NCBI GenBank assembly: GCA_028278645.1
Contig: JANQDZ010000010.1
Location: forward strand, 1-64,000
DNA length: 64,000 bases
Source of the DNA: Longimicrobiales bacterium
GTDB taxonomy: Bacteria; Gemmatimonadota; Gemmatimonadetes; Longimicrobiales; Gaopeijiaceae
Direction: 5' to 3'
Positions 6,184 through 48,022 of the stretch are shown one piece after another. How positions within the stretch are numbered: position 1 is the first letter of the stretch; each line of letters opens with the position of its first letter. The position numbers were made by a program, and so were the translations under genes. Under the pieces are notes generated by a model. The model saw only the letters and a program-made list of their open reading frames with translations. It made no database searches and was not told the origin of the DNA.

Positions 6184-6820
6184 TGATCCGCTGGCCGTAG
6201 GCCGCCCAGCTCTCGTTGTGGGTCACCTGAATGATGGTGGTGCCCTCCTCATTCAGGCCCTTCAACAGATCCATGATCATCTTGCCCTGGGAGGTGTGAA
6301 GGCTCCCCGTAGGCTCGTCGGCCAGGATCACTTTTGGCTCGGCGATGATGGCTCGGGCCACCGCAACCATCTGTTGCTGTCCCCCGGACAGCTGGTTCGG
6401 ATAGAGGTCCTTCTTCCCCACGATCTGGAAACGGTCCAGGGTGTCGGCCACGATCGCCTGCCGTTCCTTACGCTTCACGTTCCGGTACGAGAGGGGGATC
6501 TCGAGGTTCTCGTAGACCGTGAGGTCGTCCAGAAGGTGATACTGCTGGAAGACGAACCCGATGTACTCTCGATTCAGCGCGATCCGGTCCTTTGGACGCA
6601 TGGCGTGAACCGCTTCGTGTAGGAGGTAGTATTCCCCTCCCCAATCTCCGTCCAGCATCCCAAGGATCGCCAACAGAGTGGACTTCCCTGCCCCGGACGG
6701 GCCCATAACGGTGATGAAGTCGCCGGAGTCGATGTCCATGGTAATACGGCGTAGCACGAAGGTTTCGCCGGCACCCGTTTTATATGACTTCTCGAGATTC
6801 CGAAGACTGATGAGCGACAT
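6152..6820 (-). CDS. ABC transporter ATP-binding protein, LolD/MacB type (second copy, atypical D-loop)
   Basis: 222 residues with Walker [10 protein letters not shown]-loop VFQQYHLL, signature LSGGQQQ, Walker [10 protein letters not shown] and H-loop THN. Where the paralogue at 6911-7648 has NLDS after Walker B, this one has SLHT, so the D-loop aspartate is missing. LolD/MacB ATPases drive FtsX-like permeases in lipoprotein release or export. It is the last gene of a TolC-adaptor-ATPase-ATPase run and is separated from the previous ATPase by a terminator-like hairpin. No permease is adjacent. Confidence 0.88.
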
Positions 6821-6858
6821 TAGGTTGGACCTCTGGTTGAGTTATGGGTTCAAGAAAA

Positions 6859-6888
6859 GGGGGGTGAAGGATTGTCCCTTCACCCCCC
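6859..6888 (-). terminator. Terminator-like hairpin between the two ATPase genes
   Basis: Arms GGGGGGTGAAGG (6859-6870) and CCTTCACCCCCC (6877-6888) are perfectly complementary across a short loop. Read on the minus strand the stem is followed by TTTTCTTG, the form of a Rho-independent terminator. It lies after the first ATPase and before the second, so it may cut or attenuate expression of the distal gene. Confidence 0.75.
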
Positions 6889-6910
6889 GAAGCTATTGGG
6901 CTCGATGGTC

Positions 6911-7648
6911 TCAGGCTACATCGAAGCCGCTTTCTTCCAGTTCCGCCATCTTCTTGGCGTCCTCTTCGCTCACGATTTGACCGTCGAAGAGGTGGATCAT
7001 CCGCTGGGCCATATGGGCGTAACGCGGATCGTGCGTAACCATGCAGATGGTGGCCCCGTCGTCGTGCAGCTCCTTCAGAAGTTCCATGACCGCGTGACCG
7101 TTTTTCGAGTCCAGGTTACCCGTGGGCTCGTCAGCCAGGAGGATCAGGGGCTTCCCGACAATGGCCCGCGCCACAGCTACGCGCTGCTGCTGACCGCCGG
7201 AGAGCTGGGACGGATAGTGGTTGATCCTATGGGCCATTCCTACCCTCTCGAGGGCCTCCTGGACCCGCTCTTTCCTCTCCTTTCCGGGCATCCCCCGGTA
7301 CGTGAGAGGCAGCTCGACGTTCTCATAAACCGTGAGGTCGCCGATCAGGTTGAAGGCCTGGAAGATGAATCCGATGGCCTGGTTTCTGATTTTGGCTCGG
7401 GTGGAAGCCGTCAGGTTTTCGACGGGCTCGTTGTCCAGAACGTACTTTCCGCCGCTGGGTGAATCCAGGAGCCCGAGGATGGAGAGGAGGGTGGTCTTTC
7501 CGCACCCGGACGGACCGGCGATGGAGACGAACTCACCCTTCTGGATCTCCATGTCGATGTTGGAGAGAGCGTGGGTTTCCACCTCTTCCGTATAAAAGAC
7601 CTTGCTGAGTCCCTTGAGGTTGATCAGGGAGTGTGCGTCTGCGGACAT
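6911..7648 (-). CDS. ABC transporter ATP-binding protein, LolD/MacB type
   Basis: 245 residues. All catalytic motifs look intact: Walker A GPSGCGKTT, Q-loop FIFQAFNL, signature LSGGQQQR, Walker B LILLADEPTG, D-loop NLDS and H-loop THD. The ATG at 7648 has GAGGAGA 4 bases upstream. Proteins of this group energise MacB- or LolCE-type permeases that act on substrates at the periplasmic face. It follows the HlyD adaptor gene by 146 bases, which is too little space for a permease. Confidence 0.9.
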   Translation of the reverse strand: MSADAHSLINLKGLSKVFYTEEVETHALSNIDMEIQKGEFVSIAGPSGCGKTTLLSILGLLDSPSGGKYVLDNEPVENLTASTRAKIRNQAIGFIFQAFNLIGDLTVYENVELPLTYRGMPGKERKERVQEALERVGMAHRINHYPSQLSGGQQQRVAVARAIVGKPLILLADEPTGNLDSKNGHAVMELLKELHDDGATICMVTHDPRYAHMAQRMIHLFDGQIVSEEDAKKMAELEESGFDVA

Positions 7649-7794
7649 TGGTCTCCTCTATCTCCTGGGGTACGTTCTCGTGTCGTCTTCGTTGGTGCCG
7701 GGCAGGGCTCCACTTTGCAAGCCGTACGGCGGTTCGACCCCCCGGGTTTCATCACCCGTCGGCCGTCCGCCACCTCGGCCTGAAACGCAGGCCC

Positions 7795-9051
7795 CTAGCC
7801 CCTCAGCCTCACCCGGTCGTATCCGTCCCATTGGTCCATGGGGGACAGGATCACCACGTCCCCGGGCTCCAACCCCTCCATCACTTCGATCTCGTTCACC
7901 GAGCTGGCACCTAGTTGGACGCTGATTCGCTCGGCAAAGTTGCCCTCCTCCACCAGCTTGAAGATCCCGACCCGGCTGTTGGCCTGCCCGAAGGCGGGCC
8001 GCCCCACGAATACTACGTCCTCGAGGCGCTCGATTTCCACCGTCCCGTCGATGGTCAGGTCAGGTCGGGCGCTCTGGGGCAGCTCGGCCGGCAAAGCCAC
8101 GTCGATGAGGACAGCGGCGTTCTGGACGGCGGGATCGATCCTTGAAACCCTCCCAACTATGGTATCGTTCCGCGTATCGATCAACGCGGTCTGTCCCACC
8201 ACGATGTCTTGAGCCTGGGTTTGTGGGATCCGCACCTCGGCTTTCAGACGTCCGGGCTGGACGACCCGGGCGAGGCTACCCCCCGCCTGAACCCACTCCC
8301 CTTCCTGCACCGGCAGTTCGGCGAGGACTCCGGAAACCCCAGCTGTCACCAGCAACGAGGCCTGCCGGTCGGTGTTGAAAACGACGATGTCCTGGAGGCG
8401 CCGGACCTGGCTTTCCTGGGCGTTGATCTGCTCCTCCACCGAAGACTCCAAGACCTCCAGTCTCTCCTGCTCCAGGGCGAGACGGGTCTCCAATTCCTCC
8501 GCCAATTCGCGGCTACGTTCCAGCTCGGCCCGAACCACCAGGTCGGGATCCATGTCGTAGAGACGCTGGTTCTGATCGTAAATCCGCTTCGCGTCCAGAT
8601 ACTGGGTCCGGGTTTGAGCGACCATGCCTTCCTGGGTAAGTCGCTGCGTAGCCAACCCGGACCTAAGAGTGATGAGGTTCGCCTGGGCCTGGGTGAGCTG
8701 CTGTTGCGACTGGAGAAGTTGGACCTCCACATCGGGGTTGCTCAACCTCAGGATGACGGTCGTCGAATCGATTTCCTCTCCGGGTAGGAGGAACCGCTGC
8801 TCCACCCGGCCGGCCGTTAGGGCGGTGATATAGCGCATCTGTTCGGGGACCAAGGTCCCGTTCCCCCTGACGGCCCTGACGAACGTCCCGAACTGGACCG
8901 TATCGGTCCAGACGGTGGCCCGATCAACCGTGGGGGACGCAGGCTTGAGGTTGCTCAGGCCCCAGGTGATGAGGATCAGGACGATGACACCGGCGGATAT
9001 CTGGATCGCCCGCTTTTTCCCCTTGGGTTTCTGCTCTCGGATGATGTCCAA
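7795..9051 (-). CDS. HlyD/MacA-family periplasmic adaptor
   Basis: 418 residues. One N-terminal membrane helix (about 17-35) is followed by a barrel-sandwich/lipoyl-like half, a long coiled-coil hairpin rich in Gln, Glu and Arg (about 105-215), the second lipoyl half and a beta-barrel domain. This is the standard layout of membrane fusion proteins that bridge an inner-membrane transporter to TolC. The start is TTG at 9051 behind an AGAGGG site. It lies 25 bases after the TolC-family gene and upstream of two LolD-like ATPases, so it probably belongs to a MacAB-TolC-like exporter. Confidence 0.85.
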   Translation of the reverse strand: MDIIREQKPKGKKRAIQISAGVIVLILITWGLSNLKPASPTVDRATVWTDTVQFGTFVRAVRGNGTLVPEQMRYITALTAGRVEQRFLLPGEEIDSTTVILRLSNPDVEVQLLQSQQQLTQAQANLITLRSGLATQRLTQEGMVAQTRTQYLDAKRIYDQNQRLYDMDPDLVVRAELERSRELAEELETRLALEQERLEVLESSVEEQINAQESQVRRLQDIVVFNTDRQASLLVTAGVSGVLAELPVQEGEWVQAGGSLARVVQPGRLKAEVRIPQTQAQDIVVGQTALIDTRNDTIVGRVSRIDPAVQNAAVLIDVALPAELPQSARPDLTIDGTVEIERLEDVVFVGRPAFGQANSRVGIFKLVEEGNFAERISVQLGASSVNEIEVMEGLEPGDVVILSPMDQWDGYDRVRLRG

Positions 9052-9076
9052 GGAAACACCCTCTCAATTCTATGGT

Positions 9077-10627
9077 TTACGGCTGGAAGTCGACCTCAGG
9101 TCGAAGCCTCTCTCCCACTGCTGCCTCCAAGGCCCATATGGCCCCGTGGAAGCGGTACCGTGCGTTCAAGTAATCTCGTTCGGCCGTCGCCATGGAGGTC
9201 TGGGCCTCGAGAAGCTCGAGGAATGCGGAGGCACCCAAGCGATACCGCTGTTGGGCCAGCTCGAGTTGCTCTTCGGCGACTTCTCGGTTCCGGCCCTCGA
9301 TCTCCACGACTTGTGTGGCCGTCATCAGCTCGTCGTAGGCCTGGGTGACCCCGGTCTGGAGTCTGAGCTCCTCGGAGACCCGGTCCAACATGGCGTCTTC
9401 AGCAGCAGCCTTGGCTTCCGCCACCTGGCGCTGTCGCCCAAACCCCTGAAAAACCGGGAGAGACACCTGTACGTACAGGGACCAGGGTTCCCTGCGAAAG
9501 TTAAAAGGGAAGACATCATTGTTGGCCAGGATCTGTTCTTCCTGCTCCCGCGTGAGTATGCCGGCCCCGCAGTCCTGGGGGTAGCCAGTCAGTGGCTGAC
9601 TCAAGCCTGCGCTGATCTCGTTCAATCGCGCGCAGCTTGCTGCCTGGGAGGCCACCGATCCTCGAGCCGAATTCAGAAGGAACTGCTCGTCTCCGATCTG
9701 TCTCGCCCGGCCCGACCAGTTGGCGGAAAGGAAGATGTTGGGCAGGTACTGGCTCCAAGCCTGTCGGGAGGCCGCTTTGCGGGCGCTCTCCTGGGCCCTA
9801 GACGCCTGAAGCTGCGGGTGGCGTTCCATGGCCCGGCTTACCAGGTCCTCCCGGGCCCAGTTGGGCTCGAAGATCTCGAACTCACTCACCAGACTGAAGT
9901 GGCCCTCGGCGGGCACCCCCAACTGCTCCAGGAGCCGGAGTTTCTCGGTCCTGAGAAGGCTCTCGGCCTCCAGCAGGTCGATCTGCGCGCGACCCTTCTC
10001 CACCTCCGCCTGCTTTCCGTCGGTGGGCGTAGCTGCGCCGACGGACACCCTTGCATTGGCGAGCTCGAAGTTCTGCTGAGCCCGGTCCAGTTGCCTTAAG
10101 GCGACTTCCACGCCATCCCGGGCCCTGAGAGCTATCAGATATTGGGCCGTGACTTCCGACTCCAGGGTGAAGGACGCCGCCGTGATCCGCGCCTCCGTCG
10201 CCTTACGATCCGCCCTGGCGCTCGCGACCTGGAAAATGTTCCCGCCCAGGAGGCTATACGTGGCCGTGAGGCTGTATCCGGAGAAGTAGTAATCGGTCAC
10301 ATCCAGCCCGAGGTCACCCGCGTCGAAGATCCCGAAGGACGGAGAACCAGGAGCGAGATACTGGCCTGAAATGCTTGTGCTCAGGTCGGGCAGGAATAGG
10401 CCATAAGCCTGCCTGACGTTCCAATCCGCCGGCCCCTGGTCGTTCTCTGTGCTCAGGAACGTGGGGTTATGGCGGCGTGCCAGGTTTATGGCATTGTCCA
10501 ACGTCAGTGTGCTCCCAACCTCTTGGCCGCCCAAGTCTTCTCCGGCCCATGGAGGGGCCATCAGGAGGGGAGTGAGGATGAGGAGGGTCGCAGCCCGCCA
10601 GTAAAAACCAGGTATTCCTCGAGTCAC
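9077..10627 (-). CDS. TolC-family outer-membrane efflux protein
   Basis: 516 residues. A signal peptide (about 10-30) precedes two OEP repeats with long helical coiled coils, as in TolC, an outer-membrane channel trimer. An unusual loop (around residues 330-390) contains two cysteines and Asn-rich sequence. GTG 10627 was chosen because GGAAGGAG lies 8 bases upstream and the hydrophobic signal follows; starting at 10690 would add a basic, implausible leader. First gene of the adaptor/ATPase operon. Confidence 0.87.
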   Translation of the reverse strand: MTRGIPGFYWRAATLLILTPLLMAPPWAGEDLGGQEVGSTLTLDNAINLARRHNPTFLSTENDQGPADWNVRQAYGLFLPDLSTSISGQYLAPGSPSFGIFDAGDLGLDVTDYYFSGYSLTATYSLLGGNIFQVASARADRKATEARITAASFTLESEVTAQYLIALRARDGVEVALRQLDRAQQNFELANARVSVGAATPTDGKQAEVEKGRAQIDLLEAESLLRTEKLRLLEQLGVPAEGHFSLVSEFEIFEPNWAREDLVSRAMERHPQLQASRAQESARKAASRQAWSQYLPNIFLSANWSGRARQIGDEQFLLNSARGSVASQAASCARLNEISAGLSQPLTGYPQDCGAGILTREQEEQILANNDVFPFNFRREPWSLYVQVSLPVFQGFGRQRQVAEAKAAAEDAMLDRVSEELRLQTGVTQAYDELMTATQVVEIEGRNREVAEEQLELAQQRYRLGASAFLELLEAQTSMATAERDYLNARYRFHGAIWALEAAVGERLRPEVDFQP

Positions 10628-10747
10628 CGTCCATACTCCTTCCAAAATCACCATCGGCCCCTGCCTCCGCCCTGCCCCATTTCCGCCCACCGGGATCAGC
10701 GGGCCATCTACTCCGATGACGCGTCTACTTGAATCACGTCGATGAGC

Positions 10748-44432: not shown

Positions 44433-44476
44433 GAAAAGAACGCCCGTCGGTGCCAACTGGCGCTGGCGGGCTTTTC
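44433..44476. repeat. Repeat hairpin element, copy 1 (terminator-like)
   Basis: A 44-base imperfect palindrome (outer arms GAAAA and TTTTC, inner GCCCG and CGGGC, core GTGCCAACTGGCGC) matching 47423-47466 at 37 of 44 positions. The paired bases of the GCCCG/CGGGC stem remain pairable in both copies although the sequence differs. On the plus strand it ends in CTTTTC, so it can terminate the S9 peptidase transcript. Confidence 0.75.
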
Positions 44477-44528
44477 GTGGGTATCGTTGAAGAGACCAAC
44501 CACCCTCACCTGGAAGAGGCATGCCCGC

Positions 44529-47360
44529 ATGGGGCACGACCACTCTGAAACCCTGATCCACGAGATCTTCCGAGCACAGTCTGAGAAGGATCCGGAGGGC
44601 ACCGCCCTCCGATACGGGAACGAGACTATCACTTACTCGGCCTTGGAAGCCCGGGCTGCGCAGCTGGCTGTTGGTTTGGTTGCCAGAGGGATCGGTTCAG
44701 GCTCGACTGTTGGCCTCCACATGGATCGATCCATCGACTGGGTGGTGGGGATTCTTGGGGTCCTGAAAACCAACGCTGCAGTGGTTCCCCTCCCGGCATC
44801 GAACCCTGAAGGATGGCTCAGGGACATCCTGGCCTTCTCATCTCTGGACTTGGTCGTCGATCAGGGGCAAGGAGTTCCGGACCCTCGGCCCCCGACCGAC
44901 GTGGTCTCTTTCTCCGGGCTCCTCGCGGAGGTGGGATTCACTTTCGAAAAACCCGCTTCCGAAATCGAAACTGGCGACCCCCAACAGCCGGCGTTCGTCC
45001 TCTGCTCTTCAGGTTCCACCGGTCGCCCCAAGATGATCGTCCGAAGCCACGACTCCTTCTTCCACCGGTTCCGATGGACCTGGGGAGAGCACCCTTTCGG
45101 GCCCGGCGAGGTGTGTTGCCAAAAGGCCCACATGACCACCACACACTCGGTCTACGAGTTGTTGGAACCCCTCCTCGTGGGCGTTCCGGTGGTGATCATT
45201 CCAGACGAGGCCGTACGGAACCTGGAGGTCTTCTGGCGCCTCATCCGCGAGAATGGAGTCACACGCCTTCTGATCGTCCCGTCCGCGTTACGAGCCAGCC
45301 TGGATGTGCCCGGCTTCTCGGCTCCGCCCATGAATGTCCTGGTGATCATGGGCGAATACCTGAACACCCGGTTGGCCGAAAGGACATTGAAGGCCTTCCC
45401 CGAGGACACCAAGGTTTTCTCCATCTACGGGAGCACCGAAGCGAGCTCTACTCTGGTCTGCGACGTTCGTAAGTACCTCCGGCCATCGGAGGAGCTCCCG
45501 CTCGGAGTCCCCATCTCTTCTGACGTCCGGCCCCTTGTGTTGGACCGGGACTCCGCCACGGTAGAGCCGGGAGGCGAAGGTCGCCTCTTCATGGCCGGGA
45601 CCGCCCTCTTTCAGGAGTATTTCAAGGACCCGGAAATGACGGAGGAGGCATTTTCAGAGTTTCCCGATGTGCCCTCCCCGGTTTACGACACCAAGGATCA
45701 GGTCCGGCTTTCGACCAGTGGTGAGATTCAATACGTCGGGCGCGTAGACGACACAGTAAAAATTCGTGGATTCCGTGTCGATCTCCCAGAGGTCGAGCGG
45801 GGTCTGCTCCTCCATCCCGATGTCGGCCAGGCAATAGCCCTCGCCACCGACCAGCTCGGTGAGGGGACCTCCCTGATCGGCTTTTACACTCCGAATACCA
45901 TTCATCGGTCGGAGGTGGCGGCCACCCTCCGACAGCACCTGCCATCCTATATGGTTCCGTCGTTTCTGGTGGGCCTCGAGAGTTTTCCACTCACGGCCAG
46001 TGCAAAGGTGGACAGGATCAAGCTCCTGGAGCGCTTCGCCCAACGGGCCGATGTCCCGGTTAGCGACTCGGGGCTCACCACGACGGAAGAGAAGGTGATG
46101 GCCGTCTGGAAAGGGACCCTCGGGCACTCCCAGTTCGGCGCCACGGACAACTTCTTCGAAGTGGGAGGTGACTCCCTCTCTGTATTCACGCTGGCCCACA
46201 GTATCTGCGACGGCTTTGGAATCACTCCCGATCAGATGCCGGAACAGTCGATATACAACGCGCCGACGGTGTCTGAGATGGCAGTGCGCGTCGAAGGGAT
46301 CCTCTCGGGGGACGTCCCCGTTGGGAATACCGACTCCCCGATCCGGGTGACCCTCAGGAAGGGCTTGGCTCCCGATAAGTCGCCTCTATTCCTCATTGCG
46401 TCGGCCGGAGGCACCCTGGGGGTTTATCAGAAGCTGGCAGGCGCCCTCACCACCGATCGGGAAGTCATCGGGATCCGGGACCCGTTTGTGTGGGGCCAAC
46501 GCGATCCGACGGAGGGCTTCCAGCGCTGGGTCGGCCTGTATCTGGACGCCATCCGGGAGAGGCAGCCAAGCGGCCCATATTTCATCGGGGCCTACTCCGC
46601 CGGCGGCGCATGGGGATTGGAGATCGCTCGCCAACTCCAGGAGCAAGGCCAGGAAGTACCGCTCCTCGCCCTGATCGACCCCCTTGCCTTGGATCGCCGG
46701 AACAAGTGGCGATACGGGCACTGGGCTCTCCAGGCGACCTGGATGGGGCCAGTATTTCGGGAGATCGTAAAACTGGTGGGTCGGCTTCGGGCGCCCTTCC
46801 TCAGGCTGGTCGGTGCAATCCGAACCAGCCCTGGCCCAAATAATCACACATTCTCAGACCAGATGGTGGAAGAGATCACCCGGTACGCATCGACGAAGAA
46901 ATCTCACATCAGAGCTCTAGCAGGTCTGATGGAGCTCAATACCGGCGTCCCCTACGACCTGGCCGACGACGCGTTTTTGGGCATACCGGCGGAAGAGTAT
47001 CTCGGCGTCCTTTTGGCCCGAGTGGCGGAACTGACTCCAGAGGTGGATCCCTCCACCGTCGAGCGGATCGCCGTCCAGTACGAGTTACAGGCTCGCTCCC
47101 AGCACGCCTATGAACTTCGGGCCTACGATGGATTTGTCTGGTTAGCCCAGGCGCGCACCAAATACCTTGGCCTCCTGGAGGCTCAACTCCGGCCACATTT
47201 GAAACACCTGGAGACTCAGGTCTACGACCTGGGCACCCCGACCGTGCGGACGGCGGCAATCGTAGAGCGTTTCGGGAGCCTTGAGGCCCACTTCCGATGT
47301 ATGCGGGACGATCAGTTTGTAGCTTCTCTGGCAAAGGGGTTGGACCGGTTCCTGGGCTGA
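44529..47360 (+). CDS. NRPS-like A-PCP-TE enzyme without condensation domain
   Basis: 943 residues. The adenylation domain (about 1-520) shows A3 CSSGSTGRPK near 160, A5 YGSTEAS, A7 YDTKDQ, A8 GRVDDTVKIRGFRVDLPEVE and A10 SAKVDR. A carrier domain follows with FFEVGGDSLS (phosphopantetheine Ser near 549), then a type I thioesterase (about 625-943) with GAYSAGG (Ser near 690) and late catalytic His in EAHFRCM. At the A4 position, where amino-acid-activating domains have the alpha-amino-binding Asp, this one reads TTTHSVYE (Thr205). An alpha-keto or other non-amino acid is therefore likely (inference). The same architecture occurs in arylpyruvate-dimerising enzymes such as RalA and fungal atromentin synthetases. 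ATG 44529 follows AGAGGC. Confidence 0.88.
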   Translation: MGHDHSETLIHEIFRAQSEKDPEGTALRYGNETITYSALEARAAQLAVGLVARGIGSGSTVGLHMDRSIDWVVGILGVLKTNAAVVPLPASNPEGWLRDILAFSSLDLVVDQGQGVPDPRPPTDVVSFSGLLAEVGFTFEKPASEIETGDPQQPAFVLCSSGSTGRPKMIVRSHDSFFHRFRWTWGEHPFGPGEVCCQKAHMTTTHSVYELLEPLLVGVPVVIIPDEAVRNLEVFWRLIRENGVTRLLIVPSALRASLDVPGFSAPPMNVLVIMGEYLNTRLAERTLKAFPEDTKVFSIYGSTEASSTLVCDVRKYLRPSEELPLGVPISSDVRPLVLDRDSATVEPGGEGRLFMAGTALFQEYFKDPEMTEEAFSEFPDVPSPVYDTKDQVRLSTSGEIQYVGRVDDTVKIRGFRVDLPEVERGLLLHPDVGQAIALATDQLGEGTSLIGFYTPNTIHRSEVAATLRQHLPSYMVPSFLVGLESFPLTASAKVDRIKLLERFAQRADVPVSDSGLTTTEEKVMAVWKGTLGHSQFGATDNFFEVGGDSLSVFTLAHSICDGFGITPDQMPEQSIYNAPTVSEMAVRVEGILSGDVPVGNTDSPIRVTLRKGLAPDKSPLFLIASAGGTLGVYQKLAGALTTDREVIGIRDPFVWGQRDPTEGFQRWVGLYLDAIRERQPSGPYFIGAYSAGGAWGLEIARQLQEQGQEVPLLALIDPLALDRRNKWRYGHWALQATWMGPVFREIVKLVGRLRAPFLRLVGAIRTSPGPNNHTFSDQMVEEITRYASTKKSHIRALAGLMELNTGVPYDLADDAFLGIPAEEYLGVLLARVAELTPEVDPSTVERIAVQYELQARSQHAYELRAYDGFVWLAQARTKYLGLLEAQLRPHLKHLETQVYDLGTPTVRTAAIVERFGSLEAHFRCMRDDQFVASLAKGLDRFLG

Positions 47361-47412: not shown

Positions 47413-47913
47413 TCACCCGGCGGAAAAGAATGCTCGTTTGTGCCAGCTGGCGCTCGCGGGTTTTTCCCATCCACCTGCCTCGAGCTCCGACAACCGGGTG
47501 ATGGAGTTGTCGAACACCACCGTGTCCAGGGTGATCTCGCCTGCGTCTACCTTCGCCTTGAACTCGGCTCTGGTGAGGCGCCGGACGTGATCTCCCTCCT
47601 TATAGAGGACCGGCCCTTGGTCCACGAAGCTCATGCCGAAGTCCTGGCCCAACTCCTTGAGGATCCGGGTCATGGCATCGATGGAGCATCCCGACGGGGG
47701 TTCGGAGGCCTCGTCTACGGCGACCAGGAGGAACCTGCCGTACCGCCAATCCCGTGCGCAGGTCAGGGGCATACCGTGGGCGGCCCAGCCTTTCAGGAAC
47801 GTGTCGGCTCGAGCCAGGAACTCGGTCTCTTCCTCTTGGGACAAAGGGCGCTCGGCGGGGAATATCCAGAGGCGGGAGGCCGAGGGAAGGTCGGAAAATG
47901 GAATCTGGGGCAT
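47413..47913 (-). CDS. Conserved small protein of the family often mislabelled ABC transporter ATPase
   Basis: 166 residues. The blocks IPFSDLPSASRLWIFPAERPLSQEE, FLKGWAAHGMPL, FLLVAVDEASEPPSGCSIDAMTRILKELG and the C-terminal WEKPASASWHKRAF resemble a small family seen in Bacteroidota and relatives, commonly given that name although it has no Walker motifs. Function unknown. ATG 47913 has GGAGGACC upstream. Its last 15 or so codons coincide with the repeat hairpin at 47423-47466, so coding and terminator functions overlap. Confidence 0.7.
   Translation of the reverse strand: MPQIPFSDLPSASRLWIFPAERPLSQEEETEFLARADTFLKGWAAHGMPLTCARDWRYGRFLLVAVDEASEPPSGCSIDAMTRILKELGQDFGMSFVDQGPVLYKEGDHVRRLTRAEFKAKVDAGEITLDTVVFDNSITRLSELEAGGWEKPASASWHKRAFFSAG
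47423..47466. repeat. Repeat hairpin element, copy 2 (terminator inside a convergent gene)
   Basis: A 44-base element matching 44433-44476 at 37 of 44 positions, with a perfect GCCAGCTGGC core. On the plus strand the stem ends in GGGTTTTTC and so can terminate the NRPS-like gene that stops at 47360. On the minus strand it encodes the C-terminus of the convergent gene. Confidence 0.75.
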
Positions 47914-47994
47914 GACTGGTCCTCCGGGTGCCAATGCCGGGTCCCGCATGGTCTGCGGCGTGCATCGCCATCGCAGGTTCAGTGGGAGGCTCGT

Positions 47995-48022
47995 AAAAAA
48001 GCCCGGCGCCTTCAACGCCGAG
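47995..48022 (-). terminator. Terminator of the AI-2E-family transporter
   Basis: On the minus strand CTCGGCG pairs with CGCCGGG around a 7-base loop and is followed by six T after a C. This is a strong Rho-independent terminator, 90 bases after the transporter stop. Confidence 0.85.

Follow-up and report, generated by a model that had tools for sequence, protein, structure and literature searches.

Judged from its sequence, one gene in the 64,000-nucleotide stretch of a Longimicrobiales genome analysed here (the window) encodes a genuine small-molecule synthetase that consists of a single protein and does without a condensation domain (Table 1). Its adenylation (A) domain groups in sequence comparisons with VD-type, beta-alanine-like domains, and Thr, His and Met at pocket positions 235, 236 and 301, as placed by alignment, match neither amino acid codes nor published keto-acid codes. 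We tentatively favour, at slightly short of even probability, a free-standing NRPS-like enzyme that activates a non-amino carboxylic acid, holds it on a carrier domain and uses its thioesterase (TE) to couple it to a second unit.

Translation from the ATG, in the frame 44529-47357, gives a protein in which Pfam detects AMP-binding (residues 14-365), AMP-binding_C (421-493), PP-binding (521-585) and Thioesterase (619-727) domains and no Condensation domain, in agreement with the A-carrier-TE plan proposed in a preliminary description of this DNA. The three units lie in a single chain, as in non-reducing NRPS-like (A-T-TE) enzymes, and the catalytic set of that class (A3 and A10 Lys, carrier Ser, TE Ser and His) is complete and invariant across the three orthologs. 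The long and poorly conserved middle region of the TE (22% three-way identity) is probably a lid.

Table 1. Features of the synthetase gene and its surroundings, in window positions.
Feature	Position	Strand	Details
Left 44-nt direct repeat	44433..44476	+	Strong intrinsic-terminator-like hairpin, -34.2 kcal/mol
Putative Shine-Dalgarno-like purine-rich sequence GGAAGAGG	44511..44518	+	About 10 nt upstream of ATG
A-PCP-TE synthetase gene	44529..47360	+	ATG 44529, stop ends 47360, 943 aa; ortholog alignment
Adenylation domain, residues 9-505	44553..46043	+	A3 Lys168 and A10 Lys493 both present
A4 motif QKAHMTTTHSVYE	45120..45158	+	Thr205 (codon 45141) = GrsA 235; His206 (codon 45144) = GrsA 236
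Carrier (PCP) domain, residues 521-585	46089..46283	+	Phosphopantetheine site Ser549, codon 46173
Thioesterase domain, residues 618-943	46380..47357	+	Ser690 (46596), His921 (47289)
Thioesterase acid candidates	Asp717 (46677) or Asp722 (46692)	+	Presumptive choice between the two
Right 44-nt direct repeat	47423..47466	+	Weaker hairpin, -21.3 kcal/mol; 37/44 identical to left repeat

A thioesterase search over 395 genomes of the phylum, together with later searches whose draws overlap with it, recovered two intact orthologs, both in other Gemmatimonadota. P0002, from a genome of a different family within the same class (G188), is identical at 468 of 942 positions (50% over the full length), and P0003, from the same family as the window genome (G415), shows 44% identity over the thioesterase region. 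Lys168, Lys493, Ser549, Ser690 and His921 are invariant in all three intact proteins, as is the acid candidate Asp722; Asp717 is replaced by Glu in P0002. Since the altered pocket and the main catalytic residues are kept in two intact orthologs, the enzyme family is maintained rather than decaying, and the conservation of motifs in three copies rules out a pseudogene or degenerate domain. A decayed synthetase copy was found in a genome of the same genus as G415 (G286, locus L046, about 7370-8800), with most of the adenylation core gone, frame breaks and a damaged thioesterase. No ortholog was found in the two other species of the window organism's genus, G001 and G002 (the latter 67% complete), a scan of the window genome's contigs gave a single weak acyl-ligase match, and plasmid searches yielded nothing beyond ordinary NRPS modules, about 30% identical. 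As a separate observation, an exceptionally long open frame (1540 aa as reported) on contig C67 of the window genome (L007, about 6544-10644) combines an acyl-CoA-ligase-like domain with further, unassigned regions.

Alignment to the GrsA A domain, using a reference sequence that matches 1amu and yields its own ten-residue code DAWTIAAICK, gives the window protein the pocket code THYSVMISTK, with GrsA D235 falling on T205, A236 on H206 and code position 301 on Met274. The replacement of the A4 Asp by Thr205, which had been claimed from the sequence at the outset, is borne out by this alignment and recurs in both orthologs, and realignment, named in advance as the point on which the claim might fall and carried out here against GrsA, restored no Asp at 235 or 236. 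The ortholog codes are THYSIMISTK (P0002) and THYSVMISAK (P0003), leaving eight of the ten code residues invariant among the three intact proteins. His occupies position 236 in all three, where VD-type domains carry Asp, and the Asp, Asn or Glu usual in the VD clade at position 331 is also replaced, again in conserved fashion. Conservation peaks in the A3-A5 segment (58% three-way identity vs 36% for the whole protein), so the pocket is evidently under constraint. A single-sequence AlphaFold model of the A domain (pLDDT 34, pTM 0.25) was left unused for reading the pocket.

Published work places recognition of the amino group at D235, where alpha-hydroxy- and alpha-keto-acid domains have small or aliphatic residues (reviewed in PMC11253843). 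Val at the first code position is regarded as a keto-acid mark (PMC10316625), and published alpha-keto-acid codes begin with Val or, once, Gly (PMC10316625, PMC5238615). Codes for aliphatic alpha-keto acids, such as V-G-M-W-N-G-A-S-V-K and similar, have Gly at 301 and either Gly or Ile at 236, in a table that covers aliphatic keto-acid enzymes and not RalA or AtrA (PMC5238615). Against that same aliphatic table the window protein has His206 and Met274 at these two positions; at position 235, normally Val in alpha-keto-acid A domains (PMC10316625), it is non-Asp, but carries Thr. The Pro of YGPTE, missing too from StsA, an alpha-keto-acid A domain (PMC11253843), is Ser in the window protein; YGSSE is, however, frequent in the VD-type clade, so this change alone is no sign of a keto acid. 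Taken together, the pocket residues suggest a small substrate, which is probably a non-amino acid.

Among the A domains sampled, those nearest to the window A domain have VD-type codes (VDWSISLANK and VDVSVGVSEK, for example) and share with it the motifs GEVCCQK and YG[SM][ST]E. In a 44-row tree, whose rows were picked for their resemblance to the window protein and a VD-type domain and so do not sample neutrally, the three A domains of the family and all 11 VD-type domains fall within a 15-row set (support 100/99) that also holds GrsA, a row flagged for odd composition; an AU test did not reject the family and the VD-type domains as one clade (p-AU 0.74). This placement hinges on the exclusion of acyl-CoA ligases, because an earlier FastTree that contained them drew the family's long branch towards them and was discarded in favour of the tree without them. 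The VD code resembles VDWVISLADK, which we take to be the published beta-alanine code, and VD-clade domains probably take beta-alanine-like substrates. Since position 235 is already non-Asp in the VD-type group, its lack of Asp is a shared feature, and the new step in this family would be the change from D236 to His; for the same reason, loss of D235 alone is no pointer to RalA or AtrA. A VD-type A-carrier protein, which runs into a condensation-like region, is encoded on Rhizobium leguminosarum plasmid p3 (L095, 3377-6622) next to a cupin-like gene and is annotated just as NRPS.

A condensation domain was undetected in all four genomes examined, namely the window genome, G188, G415 (61% complete) and G286 (89% complete), using a search that detects such domains in control genomes such as those of Bacillus subtilis and E. 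coli. This strengthens the earlier suggestion of a minimal one-enzyme pathway. The companion claim that no biosynthetic gene is adjacent holds in the window, where the ORF translations point to a peptidase, a small uncharacterised ORF and transporters as neighbours, but in both relatives a gene for a 4'-phosphopantetheinyl transferase (PPTase) lies alongside: its end overlaps the synthetase start by 4 nt in G415, and in G188 it is divergent from the synthetase at a distance of about 195 nt. Pfam confirms the PPTase in both, as well as one on a separate contig of the window genome.

The gene is bracketed by two terminator-like direct repeats, the right one of which overlaps the 3' end of a convergent downstream ORF (47413-48015, minus strand), and a search with a 21-nt core and up to 3 mismatches found no further copies in the genome. 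In the related species G001 the repeat occurs once (L067, 114-157; 40/44 identical to the left repeat), flanked on one side by the downstream ORF and on the other by an apparent peptidase 3' end, with the contig ending about 110 nt away. This locus is apparently an empty site for the synthetase; gain in the window genome and loss in G001 would both fit. An integron or transposon cassette was rejected as an account of the repeats, the two hairpins being its sole support.

Under the reading that we favour, the VD-related A domain would adenylate a carboxylic acid devoid of the amino group that Asp235 or Asp236 ordinarily grips. The substrate would probably be an oxo-, hydroxy- or dicarboxylic acid of small size, with a polar group that would meet Thr205 and His206. 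The acyl group would then be loaded onto the phosphopantetheine arm at Ser549 and pass from the carrier to Ser690 of the thioesterase, which would couple it to a second acyl unit, in a self-condensation, and release the product. That the substrate is non-amino, that it is small, and that two acyl units condense with each other instead of one being handed to a different molecule is what we infer.

The thioesterase could instead pass on the loaded acid, with an amine, alcohol, polyol or lipid as acceptor, in a manner like that of Ebony and Dlt-type systems, which transfer a loaded acid via other release parts. We consider such a ligase unlikely. It would accord with the missing condensation domain in the genome and with VD-type kinship to beta-alanine-like A domains, and the divergent middle of the TE could form an acceptor site; however, no acceptor-modifying gene is conserved beside the synthetase across the three loci, and nothing specific marks an acceptor.

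Quite unlikely, in our estimate, is the RalA/atromentin-like route put forward in the preliminary description, dimerisation of an arylpyruvate to a furanone or quinone; the arylpyruvate would be activated by the A domain, and Claisen-type chemistry in the TE would link two such units. The A-T-TE plan and the size are the same as in the window protein, and the top TE profile match is the aflatoxin-PKS TE (3ils, E=1e-14), presumably a fungal Claisen-type TE. Alignments to this profile and to those of a tyrocidine-synthetase-like TE (5e-14) and the enterobactin TE (5e-12) cover the first third of the domain only, and since the nearest solved relatives, a Claisen-type, a tyrocidine-like and the enterobactin TE among them, score broadly alike, the profile does not decide TE chemistry. 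Non-reducing NRPS-like enzymes were described in 2025 as known solely for aromatic alpha-keto acids (PMC12105029), and code position 5 is Val or Ile in phenylpyruvate-using quinone synthetases (PMC10316625), as it is here, but Val or Ile at position 5 is frequent in the VD clade too. Against the route stand the Thr in place of the Val (once Gly) that opens the published codes, the grouping with VD-type domains, and the lack of any aminotransferase beside the gene among the ORF translations of the window. Moreover, His236 and Met301 replace mostly small residues and should narrow the pocket, their bulk disfavouring an arylpyruvate in its usual pose. Arylpyruvate dimerisation is thus weakened to mere plausibility.

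Slightly less likely still is a reading in which the enzyme, for all the loss of its Asp, takes an ordinary or beta-amino acid as substrate and its TE releases either the free acid or a dimer (e.g. a diketopiperazine) or oligomer: McyG, which activates Phe despite Val at position 235 (PMC11253843), makes loss of D235 compatible with such a substrate, the nearest NCBIfam models, all below cut-off, are amino-acid NRPSs, and the VD-clade relatives probably use beta-alanine-like substrates as judged by code resemblance, but both amino-gripping Asp positions and the Asp/Asn/Glu of position 331 have given way to other residues, which are themselves conserved.

Returning to activation of a non-amino acid with TE coupling, a broader version is possible but on balance improbable. 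In it, beta-alanine-type domains would have given rise to a condensation-free Gemmatimonadota A-T-TE family separately from the arylpyruvate dimerases, and one enzyme together with a PPTase would turn a non-aromatic, non-amino acid into a new class of product. A conserved bacterial A-T-TE enzyme of apparently different ancestry, and without both amino-binding Asps, offers a direct single-gene test of how far this chemistry reaches, and it could be expressed with one PPTase.

Among known systems, RalA, EchA, AtrA, TdiA and AlfA share with the window protein the A-T-TE layout, the lack of a condensation domain and the lack of Asp235, but they use aromatic alpha-keto acids and have codes that start with Val, unlike THYSVMISTK; RalA and AtrA are set apart here by published codes and the VD-type grouping, not by direct sequence comparison. 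The VD-type domains of Nostoc and Gloeocapsopsis (L089 and L051, code [VI]DWSISLANK) share the motifs GEVCCQK, YG[SM][ST]E and VTR..LVPS and the tree group, but carry Asp236 and Val or Ile235 where the window protein has His and Thr and, unlike the window synthetase, lie within larger NRPS or NRPS/PKS proteins. Another free-standing A-T-TE enzyme of the same layout and phylum (G244, L048, 5602-8316) differs in its code, DVFSLALTFK, which retains the canonical Asp. Ebony, a beta-alanyl-amine synthetase, is by description likewise an A-T enzyme that lacks a condensation domain and has a release domain of its own, but it ends in an amine-selecting domain, whereas the window synthetase ends in a thioesterase.
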